From positions 1 to 37,582 of the IMG/VR virus record IMGVR_UViG_3300013307_000674: a stretch of DNA of 37,582 nt; one strand, 5' to 3'. Positions 1-5,676 of the stretch are shown here, one piece after another. The notes beneath the pieces are model-generated. The model had not been told where the DNA came from. It did not search any database and saw nothing but the letters and a program-made list of their open reading frames with translations. The DNA comes from a virus. The position numbers and the translations under genes were made by a program. Numbering within the stretch: position 1 is the stretch's first letter; each line of letters opens with the position of its first letter.

Positions 1-231
1 ATGGCAAAGAAACACATAGTTGAACCTATAGCTATTGAGTTATTGGCTAAGAACGTGCGCAAATACCGTTTAAAAACTGGTATTAGTCAAACTACCTTAG
101 CAGAACTGATAGGGGTGACTTATAGCCAGATCGCGAGAATAGAGTTAGCCGAGATCAATACCAGTGTGAGTATGGTTTACCTTATCGCTAAAGCTCTTGA
201 TGTTAAACCTTCTCAGTTACTCGAAGAGTAA
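1..231 (+). CDS. XRE-family helix-turn-helix regulator, 76 aa
   Basis: Small single-domain DNA-binding protein. Residues about 15-70 form an XRE/Cro-type helix-turn-helix: the segment ISQTTLAELIGVTYSQIARI matches helices 2 and 3 with the usual glycine turn, and the C-terminal part (AKALDVKPSQLLEE) is the typical last helices. It begins at the first base of the window, so its promoter is not visible. Its stop codon directly abuts the stop of the leftward gene beginning at 232. Lying at the edge of the phage, opposite the early cluster, it could be the phage repressor or a host gene next to the insertion; the sequence does not decide between them. Confidence 0.85.
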   Translation: MAKKHIVEPIAIELLAKNVRKYRLKTGISQTTLAELIGVTYSQIARIELAEINTSVSMVYLIAKALDVKPSQLLEE

Positions 232-528
232 TCACTTTCCGACAGAAAACCTTTTCCTGTAATCGCTCTTATTAACGAACTTATTGATGAAATTAATCAA
301 TTGTGAGTTTGATACTTCATTTTCATAGTTCCTATAATAGTTCTGCTCATCTACTGTAACCCAAATATCTAAATACCCTTCGCAGTTATACGGGTTTAGA
401 TGTTCAACAGCTATTTTGATCTTCTCATTATTACGGATGAACTCATAGCCGCCAAAGATGCAGTCACGCAATTTATTGTAACTCATTTTAAAAGTGGAGT
501 TGTTATTTTGTTGTGTTATTTCCTTCAT
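232..528 (-). CDS. Hypothetical protein, 98 aa
   Basis: Unrecognised small soluble protein with mixed charge and many aromatic residues in its second half (IWVTVDEQNYYRNYE). It is the last gene of a leftward early cluster and ends exactly against the stop codon of the XRE gene, with no room for an intergenic terminator. Its start overlaps the end of the 503-769 gene by 26 bases in another frame, as is common for coupled phage genes. No function is assigned. It could be an inhibitor or accessory early protein; nothing in the sequence favours one. Confidence 0.6.
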   Translation of the reverse strand: MKEITQQNNNSTFKMSYNKLRDCIFGGYEFIRNNEKIKIAVEHLNPYNCEGYLDIWVTVDEQNYYRNYENEVSNSQLINFINKFVNKSDYRKRFSVGK

Positions 529-769
529 TTTTTAATTTTTCGTTAAATGAATCTTCCAATGTTTCCTTAACTTGATCTAACATGTAAATCTTTGTTCCTA
601 TAGTTTGATATAGTTCAGTCATTGCTGGTTCAACAGCTTCAACCGTATAATAATTTTTAATAGCTGATTCGCTAACTAGTTTAACAGTATAAGCTATGTT
701 ATCAGCAATGATTTCCTTTACAACCTTGTTGTAAGTAGGAATGGGCACTTCTATTTTAATTTGACACAT
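503..769 (-). CDS. Hypothetical protein, 88 aa
   Basis: Unrecognised acidic/lysine-rich small protein, with a predicted helical second half (LDQVKETLEDSFNEKLKNEG) and no membrane segment. The ATG at 769 lies only 4 bases after a leftward copy of the TAGTATTTAT motif (783 to 774) found before many late genes of this phage. That supports this start and suggests a separate transcription start inside the cluster. It overlaps the following gene by 26 bases. Confidence 0.6.
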   Translation of the reverse strand: MCQIKIEVPIPTYNKVVKEIIADNIAYTVKLVSESAIKNYYTVEAVEPAMTELYQTIGTKIYMLDQVKETLEDSFNEKLKNEGNNTTK

Positions 770-773
770 ATTT

Positions 774-783
774 ATAAATACTA
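774..783 (-). promoter_or_regulatory. Recurrent TATTTAT start-proximal motif (leftward copy)
   Basis: Leftward reading TAGTATTTAT, 4 bases before the ATG of the 503-769 gene. It is one of twelve related copies in the window; see the finding on the recurrent motif. Probably a promoter element, or else a translation-initiation signal. Confidence 0.4.
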
Positions 784-788
784 CTGAC

Positions 789-1085
789 TTAAATAAAACG
801 CTTGGTTTTTCTTGTAATTTCCTTTTTTAATTTTGTCAGTTCAGCTAGGAAGGAAGCGAATTGCGGTTTCTTTTTCCAATCTTCACTTGTCGATAAATAT
901 TCGATCAAAGCTGATAAGACTTCTGGACATATTTCTATTAAAATCTTCCAATAATCTTTAGTATAAATAGAAAATTTGAATTGGAAATGTGCTTGTAAAT
1001 CTTTTAAATAAGTACTATACATAGGTAAGTATGAAATTTTGCCTTTTATAGTTTTGTCTTGTTTTTTATTTGCAGGATAGCCCAT
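789..1085 (-). CDS. Hypothetical basic protein, 98 aa
   Basis: Unrecognised lysine-rich protein. The N-terminal 20 residues and the C-terminus (KLKKEITRKTKRFI) are strongly basic, which may mean nucleic-acid contact. The middle is helical with several tryptophan and tyrosine residues. It lies in the leftward early cluster, 19 bases upstream of the next gene and 10 bases downstream of a 51-aa gene. No signal peptide or membrane segment is visible. Confidence 0.6.
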   Translation of the reverse strand: MGYPANKKQDKTIKGKISYLPMYSTYLKDLQAHFQFKFSIYTKDYWKILIEICPEVLSALIEYLSTSEDWKKKPQFASFLAELTKLKKEITRKTKRFI

Positions 1086-1095
1086 AATTTAATTT

Positions 1096-1251
1096 TTATT
1101 TTTCTTTTAATCGATTTAATAATTTTTCAATAATTGTTGTTGCCGGGTGTATCATAGGCAATCTTGTTAAGACATTCTCTAATGCTACTATAGCGTCTTC
1201 AATTTCTTCATTAGAAGGGGATGTTAACTGTACGTCTTTAATTTTGTTCAT
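1096..1251 (-). CDS. Small hypothetical protein, 51 aa
   Basis: A short open frame filling the gap between two leftward genes: ATG at 1251, stop at 1096. The predicted product is acidic and helical (SNEEIEDAIVALENVLTRL). It begins 1 base after the stop of the 1253-1810 gene and ends 10 bases before the start of the next, so translational coupling is likely. Unknown function. The tight packing and protein-like composition are the only evidence that it is real. Confidence 0.5.
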   Translation of the reverse strand: MNKIKDVQLTSPSNEEIEDAIVALENVLTRLPMIHPATTIIEKLLNRLKEK

Positions 1252-1252
1252 A

Positions 1253-1810
1253 TTAGTCCTGCTTTTTAAGACCTTCTACATAAGCTATAATTGATTGTTC
1301 AGTAAGTGTAGTTCCAAATGATTTTAGATACTCATCACTGTTAAATGAAAAATCTTTAAATAGAGCTTCAAGGCACTTGTTGAATTCATTCTCATATAAG
1401 GTTGTTACTTCGCTATTAAAGGGTTGTTTCATATGAGCAGTATGATTGCAATAGCTCACGGAGCTTAATTTGAAATAAACTTCATAGCCCAATAAAACCT
1501 CGTTGTCACCGCCGAAATTGACCCAAAAATTGAACTTTGTCTTATTGTTTGGTTCATCTTCAAGTTCAAATTTTATATGCTTTTTCTTATTATTAAAAAA
1601 AGTATTCTCGTCAATAGCTAAACTTAGTGCAGGGAAGAAAAATTGATAATATAATGGTTGAAGGTATTGGTGAAAAGCCTTGTTGGTGACTTTAGTCTTA
1701 TACTTTTCAACTTCTGATTCTACAATTTCCAACCCTAGTCGACTTTTTACTTCTTGGGACTTTAACTGAAATTCACTCTTCATTTCGATTTTTTGTTCAC
1801 TTTTTAACAT
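1253..1810 (-). CDS. Hypothetical early protein, 185 aa
   Basis: Unrecognised soluble protein. Residues 1-40 form a charged helical region; the rest is mixed alpha/beta with aromatic patches (LYYQFFFPALSLAIDEN and FNFWVNFGGDNEVLLGYEVYF). No motif points to an enzyme. It is the first gene of the five-gene leftward cluster; upstream lies a 295-base gap containing a hairpin at 1875-1900 and two palindromes. Position next to the primase-like gene suggests an early DNA-metabolism or host-takeover role, which is inference only. Confidence 0.65.
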   Translation of the reverse strand: MLKSEQKIEMKSEFQLKSQEVKSRLGLEIVESEVEKYKTKVTNKAFHQYLQPLYYQFFFPALSLAIDENTFFNNKKKHIKFELEDEPNNKTKFNFWVNFGGDNEVLLGYEVYFKLSSVSYCNHTAHMKQPFNSEVTTLYENEFNKCLEALFKDFSFNSDEYLKSFGTTLTEQSIIAYVEGLKKQD

Positions 1811-1874
1811 AACTAATTGATTAACAGATTGATTTTATTTAAATTTATTTTTAATTTTTTTCCTATAAACGACG

Positions 1875-1900
1875 AAAGACGGATATTACTCCGTCTTTTT
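1875..1900. terminator. Hairpin with T tract, bidirectional terminator
   Basis: Perfect 9-bp inverted repeat AAAGACGGA / TCCGTCTTT around a 6-base loop, followed by further T on the + strand. The A run on the left arm makes it usable on the other strand too. It lies between the primase gene and the early cluster, so leftward transcription from the primase would stop here and the cluster would need its own promoter. The rest of the 1811-2105 gap shows no gene I can support. Confidence 0.65.
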
Positions 1901-2055
1901 GTATTATCGGTTGATTTTGCCGACTACGCCTTTGATTATTGGGCAAATGTAGGCATTAGAATTGGAATATGCAAGAAAAATTTTAAAATTCTTATTCCTA
2001 TCAACGACTTTAGGGGATATTTTAAGCCCTAGTTCTATAGGTAACTTTGAAAAAA

Positions 2056-2101
2056 TGTAAATCTAATTTACGTTCTTTTTTTTTGTGTAAATCTAATTTA
2101 C
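2056..2101. repeat. Two identical palindromic sites 30 bases apart
   Basis: TGTAAATCTAATTTAC occurs at 2056-2071 and again at 2086-2101. Each contains the inverted repeat GTAAAT / ATTTAC around CTA. The 30-base spacing is close to three helical turns, so two dimers could bind the same face. The sites lie just after the primase stop codon. T runs follow a site on each strand, so they may instead act as weak hairpin terminators. Confidence 0.6.
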
Positions 2102-2105
2102 ATAA

Positions 2106-3743
2106 CTATTCCATATTATAATATGCAAGTTTTGTGTTGCCATCACTATAGACATAAAAGTCAAATGTCTTTTGACATGTTGAAAGCGTATGGTCACCAT
2201 CAGGTAAAGCAAACAGGGTTTTTATTATGGTAGCTTTATCTTCTTTTTCAATGTTTGAAACGTCTGATTTGAACTGAGAATAATTAGCTATACAAACAAC
2301 GTTGTCATCTGCTAGTATCTTGATTGCATCCTCATTAGCATACTCTATATATTTAAGCTTAATCTTCTTATTCATATTAATCACTGTGGCTTCATTAGAA
2401 GCGATTTCAGGCGTTATTTCTGTATCGACAATAGTTGTATTGTCTTGCTTTTTATCCTTCATTATAGGGCTTCTATTAGCTTTAAATTCAGTGTTCAGTT
2501 CTGCTACGTAGTCTTTAAACTCAGGCCAATATTTAACAATGGTTTTATTACTCATATTACCATATTTAATAATTGCTCTAACTGTTATTTTTCCACAAGT
2601 ATCAAAATCCCATTTTTCGATTATATCATAGAGTTTAGCTTTACTGTCATCAGCTTTCCATTTTGATAGTATATTACACGTTATTTTTTTCTTTTCATCT
2701 ACATCAAGTTTTGCATCCTTGGCAAAAATTAATTTTCTTTTCTTGTTCCAAAGTATAGGTTGAAGCGTACCATCTTCTTTGTATTTAAAAACAGATGTAA
2801 CTATTCTTTTTAAGTGAGCGTCATCAACTGGTGTTGCACACATTATTGAATTTACATTTTTTAAAATTTTTAAAGTGCCCGGTATGGTAAGATGTGGATT
2901 TAACCAAACTAGATTAGTAGTATATGCTAATAATGTATCGTTACGGTTGCTAGTTATTTTTCTAATAGGAATAAAGCATTTAACTATATTTTCAAATCCA
3001 TCTCTATTTTCGATATAATCACCAATAAAGCTTATCTCATCAGTATTATCATATCTTATACTTTCTAATTTTGTATCCCCTTCGTGTGTATATGCTTGTT
3101 GTTTTTTTAGATTACCATCGAAGGGGATACATTTTATATTATCATTAATTAGATTAACATCAATAGTATTATCATTAATTGAACTAAATACAAATGAATC
3201 ATAATTGATGAAAATGTTAGGGTCATAACTTAATACATTAAACTGCGTAGCTTTAACTGCACTTTTATCATAGTATTTAGATAATCCTAATTCTTTTAAA
3301 ATATTTTGATAAGTTGATTTGTAATTATTATATGTTAATCCCTTAACCTGAACTAATACAACATAACCACTTCCTCCAAAGGATTTATGGTAAGCATAAA
3401 TTTTAGATTTATCTAAAGAATTAATATCAAATGAATTATCATCATCAATATCGATATAAATTAAACCAGTACTACCTGATATATTATCATTTAATTTATA
3501 CGTATGAAATGTGAAGTTATAGGTGATGCAAGGAATCTCTCCATTTTTGATTTTATCATATTCCTTGCTTTTTCTAGGGTATTGTCGCGCCTCTAATATT
3601 TTATCAGTATAATCTGATGATTTGATTAGATTGAACCAATCTTCAATAGTAGTGTAGTCTTTTACTGTAGGTGGTGTATTTAGATTTTTAAATACATTAA
3701 ATTTTGTAGTTACCAAGTCGTTTAAATATTTGCCCGTTATCAA
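2106..3743 (-). CDS. VirE N-terminal / BT4734-type primase-like replication protein, 545 aa
   Basis: Replication protein of the archaeo-eukaryotic primase type common in Bacteroidota phages and islands. Residues 1-190 match the BT4734/VirE N-terminal layout: LIYIDIDDD near 94-102 gives the acidic metal-binding strand, GGSGYVVLVQV (123-133) the next core strand, and DKSAVKATQFNVLSYDPNIF (159-178) the last. Residues about 270-430 are helical, with basic stretches, and could be a primase C-terminal domain; no helicase Walker motif is present. The start must be TTG at 3743: an in-frame TAA lies two codons upstream and the next methionine is about 300 residues in. The leader is heavily self-complementary and opposed by a candidate antisense RNA. 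Confidence 0.8.
   Translation of the reverse strand: MITGKYLNDLVTTKFNVFKNLNTPPTVKDYTTIEDWFNLIKSSDYTDKILEARQYPRKSKEYDKIKNGEIPCITYNFTFHTYKLNDNISGSTGLIYIDIDDDNSFDINSLDKSKIYAYHKSFGGSGYVVLVQVKGLTYNNYKSTYQNILKELGLSKYYDKSAVKATQFNVLSYDPNIFINYDSFVFSSINDNTIDVNLINDNIKCIPFDGNLKKQQAYTHEGDTKLESIRYDNTDEISFIGDYIENRDGFENIVKCFIPIRKITSNRNDTLLAYTTNLVWLNPHLTIPGTLKILKNVNSIMCATPVDDAHLKRIVTSVFKYKEDGTLQPILWNKKRKLIFAKDAKLDVDEKKKITCNILSKWKADDSKAKLYDIIEKWDFDTCGKITVRAIIKYGNMSNKTIVKYWPEFKDYVAELNTEFKANRSPIMKDKKQDNTTIVDTEITPEIASNEATVINMNKKIKLKYIEYANEDAIKILADDNVVCIANYSQFKSDVSNIEKEDKATIIKTLFALPDGDHTLSTCQKTFDFYVYSDGNTKLAYYNME
3703..3732 (+). promoter_or_regulatory. Candidate rightward promoter inside the primase 5' end
   Basis: TTTG at 3703-3706, an 18-base spacer, then AATATTTG at 3725-3732. 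This is close to the Bacteroidota housekeeping pattern TTTG-N19-TAnnTTTG, with one mismatch in the -7 box. It would start a rightward RNA near 3739, antisense to the primase leader, running to the hairpin at 3904-3939. Confidence 0.35.
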
Positions 3744-3822
3744 GTTTTAATCCGCTGTCAAACGGGTAGGCAGCACCCTGGTTAGTAAACTTGATGAACC
3801 TAACTAGGGTGTGACATCTGCC
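3733..3822 (-). promoter_or_regulatory. Self-complementary leader of the primase gene
   Basis: Read leftward, the primase leader folds as GGCAG (3822-3818), bulge ATGTCA, a 12-bp stem 3811-3800 with 3785-3774 (one G-T pair), a 14-base loop, then CTGCC (3773-3769). CCCGTT (3766-3761) can pair with AACGGG (3738-3733) in codons 2-4. TGACA (3760-3756) complements the bulge. The loop segment ATCAAGTTT (3795-3787) is the exact complement of AAACTTGAT (3747-3739), which contains the TTG start. Five complementary pairs in 90 bases suggest start-codon control. An origin of replication is an alternative. No RNA family was recognised. Confidence 0.5.
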
Positions 3823-3939
3823 ATATATCTATATATACTTTCATTGTTTGAAAAGTATCAATTTATCTTTTTAAGATTTTTAATTTCTATTAGTCTTCAA
3901 TAAGGGTAATAGCACTCCCACTATTACCCATTATTTTTT
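3739..3939 (+). ncRNA. Candidate antisense RNA opposite the primase leader
   Basis: Inferred from three parts: a promoter-like pair at 3703-3732 on the + strand, the self-complementary segment shared with the primase leader, and a strong hairpin with a T run at 3904-3939 in the same orientation. No rightward open frame occupies the interval. The transcript would be about 200 bases. The arrangement resembles antisense control of plasmid replication genes, but expression is unproven. Confidence 0.3.
3904..3939 (+). terminator. Rho-independent terminator, rightward
   Basis: Perfect 9-bp stem GGGTAATAG / CTATTACCC around an 8-base loop, followed by ATTATTTTTT. It faces right although the nearest upstream gene is leftward, so it has no protein-coding transcript to end. 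This is the main hint of a rightward non-coding RNA from the preceding 200 bases. Confidence 0.65.
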
Positions 3940-4054
3940 ATCTAACAATGAAATCTGTATGTAAATATAAAATGAACTCCAAAAAATACAAGTCGAGATG
4001 GTAAATATATTTTTAAAAATATTTTAAAATTTTCGGGCACTTTATTTTTCTACG

Positions 4055-4064
4055 TAGTATTTAT
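4055..4064 (+). promoter_or_regulatory. Recurrent TATTTAT start-proximal motif
   Basis: TAGTATTTAT, 6 bases before the ATG at 4071, at the head of the rightward early operon. One of twelve related copies. Confidence 0.4.
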
Positions 4065-4070
4065 GGGTAT

Positions 4071-4256
4071 ATGGAACATAGGAAAACACTTGAATTATTA
4101 GGTTCTTATTATCTTTTAAATGAAGATGGCTATTTTTTAATTAACCCGAAACGAAAACTGGTTAAAGAAATAAGAAAAGAACACTTTGAATTGGTGGAGA
4201 CGATAATTGAAATATCAGAAGTATTCAAATCAAAACATTGGGGAAGGAAAATATAA
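4071..4256 (+). CDS. Small hypothetical protein, 61 aa
   Basis: Unrecognised small charged protein, first gene of the rightward early operon. The N-terminal half has a tyrosine-rich turn (LLGSYYLLNEDGYFLINPK) and the C-terminal half is a basic/acidic helix. The start is supported by a TATTTAT motif 6 bases upstream, and the stop lies 1 base before the ATG of the next gene, suggesting coupling. No homolog recognised. Confidence 0.5.
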   Translation: MEHRKTLELLGSYYLLNEDGYFLINPKRKLVKEIRKEHFELVETIIEISEVFKSKHWGRKI

Positions 4257-4257
4257 C

Positions 4258-4740
4258 ATGAAAATAAAGTATGTAGAAGCAGAGACGATTGGTAGAAATT
4301 GCTTTGCAAATGCTTATCCTACTTATACCAAAACATATTCTGAGAATAGATTTGATTTTTGGGATGTATCAGGATATACAAGTAACAATAGCAGTACATT
4401 GACTATAGAGCAGCCTTATATAGCGGAGATAAAACAAAGGAAGGATATTAAGCATGATAGATATAACACTGTAATGTTGGAGGTTATTAAATATCAGAAT
4501 CTAATTAACTATACCCAACAATCAGGTATTCCATCATTTTATTTTTGTGTTTATGATGATACAGCTTTAATCGCCAATTTGTCAAAAATCAATTTAGAAA
4601 ATTGCGTAAAAAAACAAAAGCTATTGCCAGAAACATCCGACCCTGATACCAATTGGATTTGGAAGGATATTTATGAAGTGCCATTAAAGTATTTCAAGAA
4701 GGTGGATAAAGGGGGAAAATATTATAAACATGATAACTAA
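4258..4740 (+). CDS. Possible PD-(D/E)XK-fold nuclease, 160 aa
   Basis: The pattern fits a small restriction-endonuclease-like domain: an acidic residue in FDFWDV (about residue 36-41), then YIAEIKQRKD (about 59-68) giving the ExK signature, then a lysine/tyrosine helix (MLEVIKYQNLINY) and a strand in SFYFCVYDD. I chose ATG 4258 rather than the in-frame ATG at 4207, because the shorter form does not overlap the preceding gene and keeps the protein-like part. Its end overlaps the next gene by 11 bases. A role as resolvase or recombination nuclease is possible; the fold call rests on motif spacing only. Confidence 0.5.
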   Translation: MKIKYVEAETIGRNCFANAYPTYTKTYSENRFDFWDVSGYTSNNSSTLTIEQPYIAEIKQRKDIKHDRYNTVMLEVIKYQNLINYTQQSGIPSFYFCVYDDTALIANLSKINLENCVKKQKLLPETSDPDTNWIWKDIYEVPLKYFKKVDKGGKYYKHDN

Positions 4741-4989: not shown

Positions 4990-5676
4990 ATGTCAGGAAC
5001 TACACAAACAAAAACAAATGAACAAATCAAACAAGAACTAATTATTCAACTGTGGGAAACAGGTAGAATAGACGGTAGATATTTTGGTAAAACCAGTAAA
5101 TCTAAAAAACACCCGATTAAGGAATATATTAGAAATTTATTATATCGAAACTTTTTATTACAAGATAATGAATTTTTAGAAGATGTATTTTCAGAATTTA
5201 TTTTGCAGTTAAATCTGATTGATGCAGATAAATTTGTAGCTATTTATAATGAATCACCAAATAAACTAATTGCTTATTCTCTAAGGATAATTGCATTGAA
5301 ATGCTTTGCTAAAGATAGCCGTAATCCAGATAACTATAAGCACTCATTAGTTAGGAATATGGCTTATGGCTCAGTTTTCAATAATTCTAACTATTCAATT
5401 AATTCAATTGAAAATATACCTGATGAAGATGATTTTGATAGTAAAAGAGAATCATTAGTTATATATGATATTGAAGAAGAAGCTGATGATTTTCTTTACC
5501 AATATGGATTTACGATTGAAGAGTTTCTAAGCTTATTGCCAGAAGAGGACAAAGCTTTCTTTTATCAATTGGCAGGAAAGAATACTAAACGTGGAAAACC
5601 TACAAATGAGTTTTTAGCAAAGAAGCAAGCTCTATTCAATAAAATCAAAGCTTTGAAGGAGAATAAAAAAGAATGA
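4990..5676 (+). CDS. Sigma-factor-like protein, 228 aa
   Basis: The layout resembles a divergent sigma-70/ECF factor. Residues about 42-110 match region 2: basic helix (PIKEYIRNLLYRNF), acidic helix (NEFLEDVFSEFILQL), then an aliphatic helix (LIAYSLRIIALKCFA). An acidic linker follows. Residues about 170-225 look like region 4: FTIEEFLSLLPEEDKAFFYQ, then a lysine-rich helix with a TKRGKPTNEFLAKK turn. It sits just before the terminase operon, where a late-gene activator would be expected, and this phage has a repeated start-proximal motif. An alternative is a generic HTH or terminase-related protein. Confidence 0.5.
   Translation: MSGTTQTKTNEQIKQELIIQLWETGRIDGRYFGKTSKSKKHPIKEYIRNLLYRNFLLQDNEFLEDVFSEFILQLNLIDADKFVAIYNESPNKLIAYSLRIIALKCFAKDSRNPDNYKHSLVRNMAYGSVFNNSNYSINSIENIPDEDDFDSKRESLVIYDIEEEADDFLYQYGFTIEEFLSLLPEEDKAFFYQLAGKNTKRGKPTNEFLAKKQALFNKIKALKENKKE

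Follow-up and report, generated by a model that had tools for sequence, protein, structure and literature searches.

How temperate phages of Bacteroidota tune the synthesis of their replication primase is the question raised by the DNA preceding the primase gene in the virus record analyzed here, a 37.6-kb contig taken at its full length of 37,582 nucleotides and referred to below as the window. A first-pass annotation had proposed that the primase start codon is sequestered in a leader capable of alternative pairing and that an opposed antisense RNA perhaps sets the fold. The terminase relatives of the window phage lead to Mucilaginibacter prophages. The nearest of these by terminase (L123, L124 and L143) carry other early modules, without the primase and its leader; compared with them, the early module that contains the primase (window 1-4300) has been exchanged, with terminases 77-94% identical, and the HTH gene at window 1-231 is inverted relative to L123. 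A search for DNA-level similarity of the window in phages and plasmids returned nothing credible. The relatives that bear on the leader were sought through the primase protein and the leader RNA, and the gene itself is described by the following features.

2106-3716, minus strand: primase gene of the BT4734-like archaeo-eukaryotic primase family (PF08800 in homologs); the aligned N-termini of homologs make TTG 3716-3714 the most likely start.
3714-3716, minus strand: TTG, the probable true start codon of the primase, at the place equivalent to the ATG of L145, L146, L147 and L284.

The BT4734-like primases constitute a family within the archaeo-eukaryotic primase superfamily (PMC5862659). PF08800 was detected in all eight proteins of the first primase alignment (E <= 0.1, best 5.9e-8), the window primase taken alone scoring 2.6e-4 and 21.6 bits, slightly below the cut-off of 22.4; PriCT_1 was found in one of eight homologs (E 0.002), and a PDB sequence search with the primase gave nothing credible. 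When the primase was used as a query against 400 genomes of the family, seven clear homologs with 37-52% identity were obtained, and further homologs were reached via alignments in viral contigs and in other genera. The homologs that have leaders show 30-57% identity. The start at TTG 3741-3743, from which the first-pass annotation had argued, is not borne out: the ATG of the four closest homologs corresponds to the window TTG 3716-3714.

The layout of the leader in the window is given below from its 5' end.

3719-3828, minus strand: whole leader RNA element, as matched (E = 7.1e-4) by covariance model R2, which was built from L145 and L284 only.
3818-3822, minus strand: 5' strand of helix P2a, GGCAG (helix search and column-pair test).
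3812-3816, minus strand: bulge segment a, TGTCA, within the conserved GATGTCAC (helix search and permutations).
3800-3811, minus strand: 5' strand of helix P2b, CACCCTAGTTAG (helix search and column-pair test).
3787-3795, minus strand: loop segment b, ATCAAGTTT (helix search, duplex energies and column-pair test).
3774-3785, minus strand: 3' strand of P2b, CTAACCAGGGTG; two-sided change at all eight tested P2b column pairs.
3769-3773, minus strand: 3' strand of P2a, CTGCC (helix search and column-pair test).
3761-3766, minus strand: 5' strand of helix P1, CCCGTT (helix search).
3756-3760, minus strand: segment a', TGACA, partner of bulge a; the changes seen in L145 (GTCACA) and L146 (TGATA) are compensatory.
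3739-3747, minus strand: segment b', AAACTTGAT, partner of loop b; all nine column pairs are kept in all five leaders of its subtype, four of them with two-sided change.
3733-3738, minus strand: 3' strand of P1, AACGGG (helix search); the equivalent P1 in L147 is CCCTTACC/GGTAAGGG.

All five pairs of complementary segments noticed at first pass are present at the coordinates given, namely ATCAAGTTT/AAACTTGAT (9 bp), CCCGTT/AACGGG, TGTCA/TGACA, GGCAG/CTGCC and the 12-bp stem. On the coding strand the stem contains a single A.C mismatch; it pairs throughout, with a G-U pair, only on the plus strand. Local fold z-scores against shuffled sequence are -3.9 for the plus strand and -3.0 for the minus strand. 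P1 and the pseudoknots formed by a/a' and b/b' may be incompatible in three dimensions. We also considered a leader peptide initiated at the ATG in GATGTCAC, and rejected it because TGA directly follows that ATG in L145 and the ATG is missing from L146.

Whether these pairings are conserved could be judged from 12 more distinct leaders adjoining homologous primases (13 with the window), which belong to phages of Sphingobacteriaceae and other Bacteroidota. Two related layouts are found on the coding strand upstream of the primases. In subtype A (n = 5: the window, L145, L146, L147 and L284), P2 with the bulge a and the large loop b is followed by a second hairpin region with a' and b', then by about 15 nt, and then by the start codon, which in L145, L146, L147 and L284 lies about 15 nt past the P1 3' strand; GATGTCAC and GGATTAAA are conserved in this subtype. 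In subtype B (n = 7: L148, L149, L150, L158, L293, L296 and L297), segments a and b precede P2, a' sits in the P1 loop (CTCTTA...TAAGAG) and b' falls between P1 and the ATG; a partner search found no good a/a' pairing in L148. The leader of L237 is similar in appearance but weaker. The close relatives with ATG starts retain the complementary segments, an outcome opposite to the one on which the first-pass annotation would have been abandoned.

The covariation test gave a clear positive result: 18 of the 29 subtype-A pairs show compensatory two-sided change. In the subtype-A alignment 94.9% of cells are paired, a level reached by none of 500 shuffles, and pairing falls to 40-53% when the partners are slid by one to three columns. 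The b/b' helix, which lay outside the model used for aligning, is paired in all five subtype-A leaders (100% of cells), the window being the changed member, with ATTGTT/AACAAT replaced by AAGTTT/AAACTT. Permutation of partners among the subtype-A leaders gave 1/120 for P2a, 1/120 for P2b, 4/120 for b and 6/120 for a, figures to be read with the small number of sequences (five), the permutation floor of 1/120 and an alignment whose fitting to a model favors P2. The corresponding values for subtype B are 1/5040 for P2, 3/5040 for a/a' and 6/5040 for b/b'. Column counts for P2 and P1 of subtype B also exceed those of shuffles, with the qualification that they include one antisense row: one row of alignment A11 is an antisense match, and A14 is the clean subtype-B set. 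The evidence for a/a' is the permutation test, since the rows differ by one position in the register of this helix, which bars column-wise counts.

The element can also be recovered by search. Model R2, from which the window was excluded, found L147 (7e-10), L146 (3e-4) and window 3719-3828 on the minus strand (7e-4) in 225 kb. It is this recovery, together with the covariation in homologs, that led us to reject chance complementarity. Across 295 whole genomes two covariance models gave five matches, each directly upstream of a primase that had been found independently by protein search; stricter model filters missed two true leaders (G143 and G107), so that absence of a match elsewhere is no proof of absence. 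Exact 14- and 16-mers of the leader used as queries produced chance matches only, and the subtype-A pattern run against viral contigs recovered two primase leaders that were already known, along with two matches in coding sequence that are due to chance. Searching the window with Rfam 15 at gathering thresholds gave no family, and relaxed thresholds gave nothing credible for any of the leaders. A mir-4433 match in L297 was rejected: it falls on a nearly perfect long inverted repeat within the primase gene (L297:2171-2249), which microRNA models matched by shape only. On this comparative evidence, we take the leaders to represent an RNA class of Bacteroidota temperate phages that is supported by covariation and uncatalogued in Rfam. 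More distant primase homologs (L285, L286, L289, L291, L292 and L294) have other strong hairpins 5' of the start, for example CCAGGGG...CCCCTGG in L285, and these may be further subtypes of the leader RNA.

Two readings of a conserved structure next to a replication gene are made less attractive by these results. Many riboswitches have a double pseudoknot adjoining the start of translation, and this layout, like the conservation of GATGTCAC and GGATTAAA in subtype A, would fit a small-molecule riboswitch that controls primase translation. The RNA, however, precedes a single gene family in the 295-genome scan, the occurrence of two subtypes with different topology suggests weak constraint on a ligand pocket, and Rfam offers no match, all of which leaves a riboswitch with very little probability. 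It is likewise very unlikely that the structured stretch is a replication origin, the main alternative named at first pass, or a primer RNA, on which the primase would act as DNA or as RNA. The element does adjoin a replication gene, but neither iteron-like repeats nor a marked skew switch was found at the element; moreover, what the conserved partner segment copies is the site where translation begins, and in every case the element extends as far as the start codon and ends there.

Which strand carries the functional RNA is the next question, and it requires the features farther upstream.

3962-3991, minus strand: Bacteroidota-type primase promoter, TTG-N19-TATATTTA, with counterparts in relatives; it had been overlooked at first pass.
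3904-3939, plus strand: terminator-like hairpin followed by a T run, located in the 5' UTR of the primase; window-specific.
3825-3858, minus strand: a further promoter-like motif (TTTTCAAA...AGTATATATAGATATA), directly adjacent to the leader; a variant of the GTATTTAT motif.

Both covariance models match the coding strand at the primases, with one weak antisense match (E 0.58), and folding stability is greater on the coding strand in 10 of the 13 leaders, the window being an exception (-29.8 coding vs -36.0 antisense). A tally of 28 G-U against 2 A.C pairs is biased by the choice of helices, and the strand argument thus rests on the model matches and fold stability. Taken together with the helices, these results indicate that the element is a conserved RNA of the coding (minus) strand, forming part of the 5' leader in the mRNA of a BT4734-type primase.

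According to the antisense proposal, a plus-strand RNA of about 200 nt, running from near 3739 to 3939, would pair with the leader and set its fold. The plus-strand hairpin at 3904-3929 with its T run is real in the sense that one was found where 0.3 +/- 0.5 were expected, there is no plus-strand gene to its left, and the window stem, as described above, pairs fully on that strand only. The rightward promoter, on the other hand, is a site of a kind that occurs at chance level, about one per 370 bases (19 TTG-N17-23-TAnnTTTG-like sites of equal quality in 7 kb of the antisense strand of 13 regions), and the 12 other leaders have kept neither this promoter nor the terminator. In contrast, 12 of the 13 leaders have a TTG-N19-TAnnTTTG-like promoter on the primase strand, at -184 to -275, and since the one in the window lies at 3991-3962, the 3904-3939 hairpin is inside the primase 5' UTR. 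With the structure conserved family-wide as a coding-strand RNA, which also folds better, the opposed antisense RNA finds no support as a conserved part of the system, and antisense control of the window primase, perhaps by an RNA confined to this phage, has a low probability.

In 12 leaders the GTATTTAT motif directly adjoins the 5' end. It also occurs a few bases 5' of the ATG of genes with leaderless-type starts (window 781 on the minus strand and 4057 on the plus strand, L123:3654 and L123:7202), and it probably represents a class of promoter used by these phages. Its two positions, at the leaders and before leaderless-type genes, suggest that a transcript likely begins exactly at the leader. 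A phrog_31903 protein encoded at window 4990-5676 (plus strand) is common to L123, L124 and L143; its sigma factor signals are weak but repeated (Sigma70_r2 at 0.22 in the L143 homolog, TIGR02937 at 0.078 in the L124 homolog), and sigma factors make up most of the top Foldseek matches of a pLDDT-59 model, with no E value better than 0.5. This protein could serve the GTATTTAT motif. The primase 5' UTR of the window also contains an inverted repeat, TTTCATTGTTTGAAAA/TTATCTAACAATGAAA, at 3839-3854 and 3938-3953, whose core, CATTGTT/AACAATG, is the b/b' pair of the relatives.

What the conserved pairings might do is suggested by a second partner of loop b.

3709-3719, minus strand: start region that can pair with loop b (GACTTGGTAAC), at about -9.3 kcal/mol (duplex energies, own versus shuffled).

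The first-pass annotation had the 9-base loop match cover the start codon. An alternative pairing can cover the start region, but the 9-base match covers a mimic of the start and not the true one, which is located 27 nt downstream of the b' TTG. In the window, loop b can pair with the true start region at -9.3 kcal/mol and with b' at -11.3 kcal/mol. Summed over the five subtype-A leaders, the b/start duplex energies are equalled in 0 of 2000 dinucleotide shuffles and in 3 of 120 permutations; taken singly, the leaders of L284 and L146 show only a weak b/start pairing, fractions of 0.12 and 0.08 of the shuffles being as good. Segment b' nearly duplicates the start region (ACTTGATAAC vs ACTTGGTAAC). 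The two sites of one phage are more alike than sites taken from different phages (47 of 65 identities, 3/120 permutations), and they share the type of start codon, TTG/TTG in the window and ATG/ATG elsewhere in subtype A. Subtype B has no start mimic, and there b' itself lies just 5' of the ATG.

The mimic also bears on the misplaced start. TTG 3743-3741 falls within b'. The ATG within b' of L145, L146, L147 and L284 lies in a different frame from the primase and cannot be its start; in the window the b' TTG is in frame with no stop, which accounts for the choice made at first pass, and a longer primase isoform initiated from it is possible. In four of the five subtype-A leaders (all the ATG members) the frame opened by the decoy ATG has its stop close to the primase start, between -4 and +8, an arrangement suggestive of translational coupling.

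We propose that the conserved RNA acts in cis as a two-state switch, governing translation of the primase by a choice between b/b' and b/start pairing, a reading to which we give a probability of about 0.55 from sequence comparison. Pairing of b with b', in the double pseudoknot, would leave the primase start free, and pairing of b with the start region would block initiation. Of the first-pass idea that alternative pairing controls primase translation, the leader and its pairings are thus retained, and the antisense RNA as the factor that sets the fold is not. The state of the switch may instead be set by the primase itself, and such autogenous control would allow the phage to limit its replication enzyme to need; the primase is our likeliest guess for the trigger, by analogy with the T4 gene 32 mRNA. 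A more specific version, that of self-mimicry, is tentative: the leader would carry a decoy copy of its own start, and a single loop would choose between the decoy and the real start. In the relatives, where the decoy opens a short frame ending at the real start, the loop would pick which of the two initiation sites opens.

The pseudoknot may alternatively be a plain operator, that is, a site where the primase, or some other protein of the phage or its host, binds and blocks ribosomes, with the b/start pairing being incidental. The finding of the RNA only beside this primase in the scan of 295 genomes fits such an operator, as does the succession of a pseudoknot, an A/T-rich spacer with TAAA/TTAAA-like runs and a start, which resembles the T4 gene 32 operator (PMC535899). 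We nevertheless consider it rather doubtful, as b' tracks the start codon and its context in each subtype-A leader, which would be needless for a plain operator.

With the two-state switch as the preferred reading, the leader offers a testable answer to the question of how temperate phages of Bacteroidota tune their replication primase. Ribosomes of Bacteroidota rarely use Shine-Dalgarno pairing, and the decoy model, if true, would reveal a compact design of translational switch for such bacteria. It would also explain why a false start is picked here by a gene finder or a reader.

Several known systems are comparable. The replication genes of plasmids R1 (CopA/CopT) and pT181 are controlled by antisense RNA and have a structured leader; the primase leader shares with them a structured leader at a replication gene and differs in having no conserved countertranscript. 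In the rep (repZ) leader of ColIb-P9/IncB, as far as it is described in the works cited in PMC10724649 and PMC7646527, a pseudoknot switches translation of the replication gene. As there, the primase leader has an upstream hairpin whose loop is complementary to sequence preceding the initiation region. The plasmid type also has a leader-peptide frame with termination coupled to the initiator gene, to which the short upstream frame of the subtype-A relatives, ending near the start, may be comparable. In the same accounts the antisense RNA (Inc/RNAI) is a defining part of the plasmid system; such an RNA was searched for at the primase leader and not found conserved, and membership in the ColIb-P9 type is accordingly not claimed. 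The primase leader further departs from the plasmid leader, as portrayed there, in its two long-range pairings, its copy of the start region and its place before a phage primase in Bacteroidota. In the operator of T4 gene 32 a pseudoknot comes first, and the ribosome-binding site lies together with UUAAA/UAAA runs in a less structured part behind it, the pseudoknot component, of about 28 nt, being the nucleation site for the single-stranded DNA-binding (SSB) protein (PMC535899). The primase leader is longer, at about 90 nt, and has two long-range pairings and a possible alternative pairing with the start; what the two have in common is that each belongs to a phage replication protein and that each places a pseudoknot at the 5' side, followed by a less structured A/U-rich segment that contains the start.
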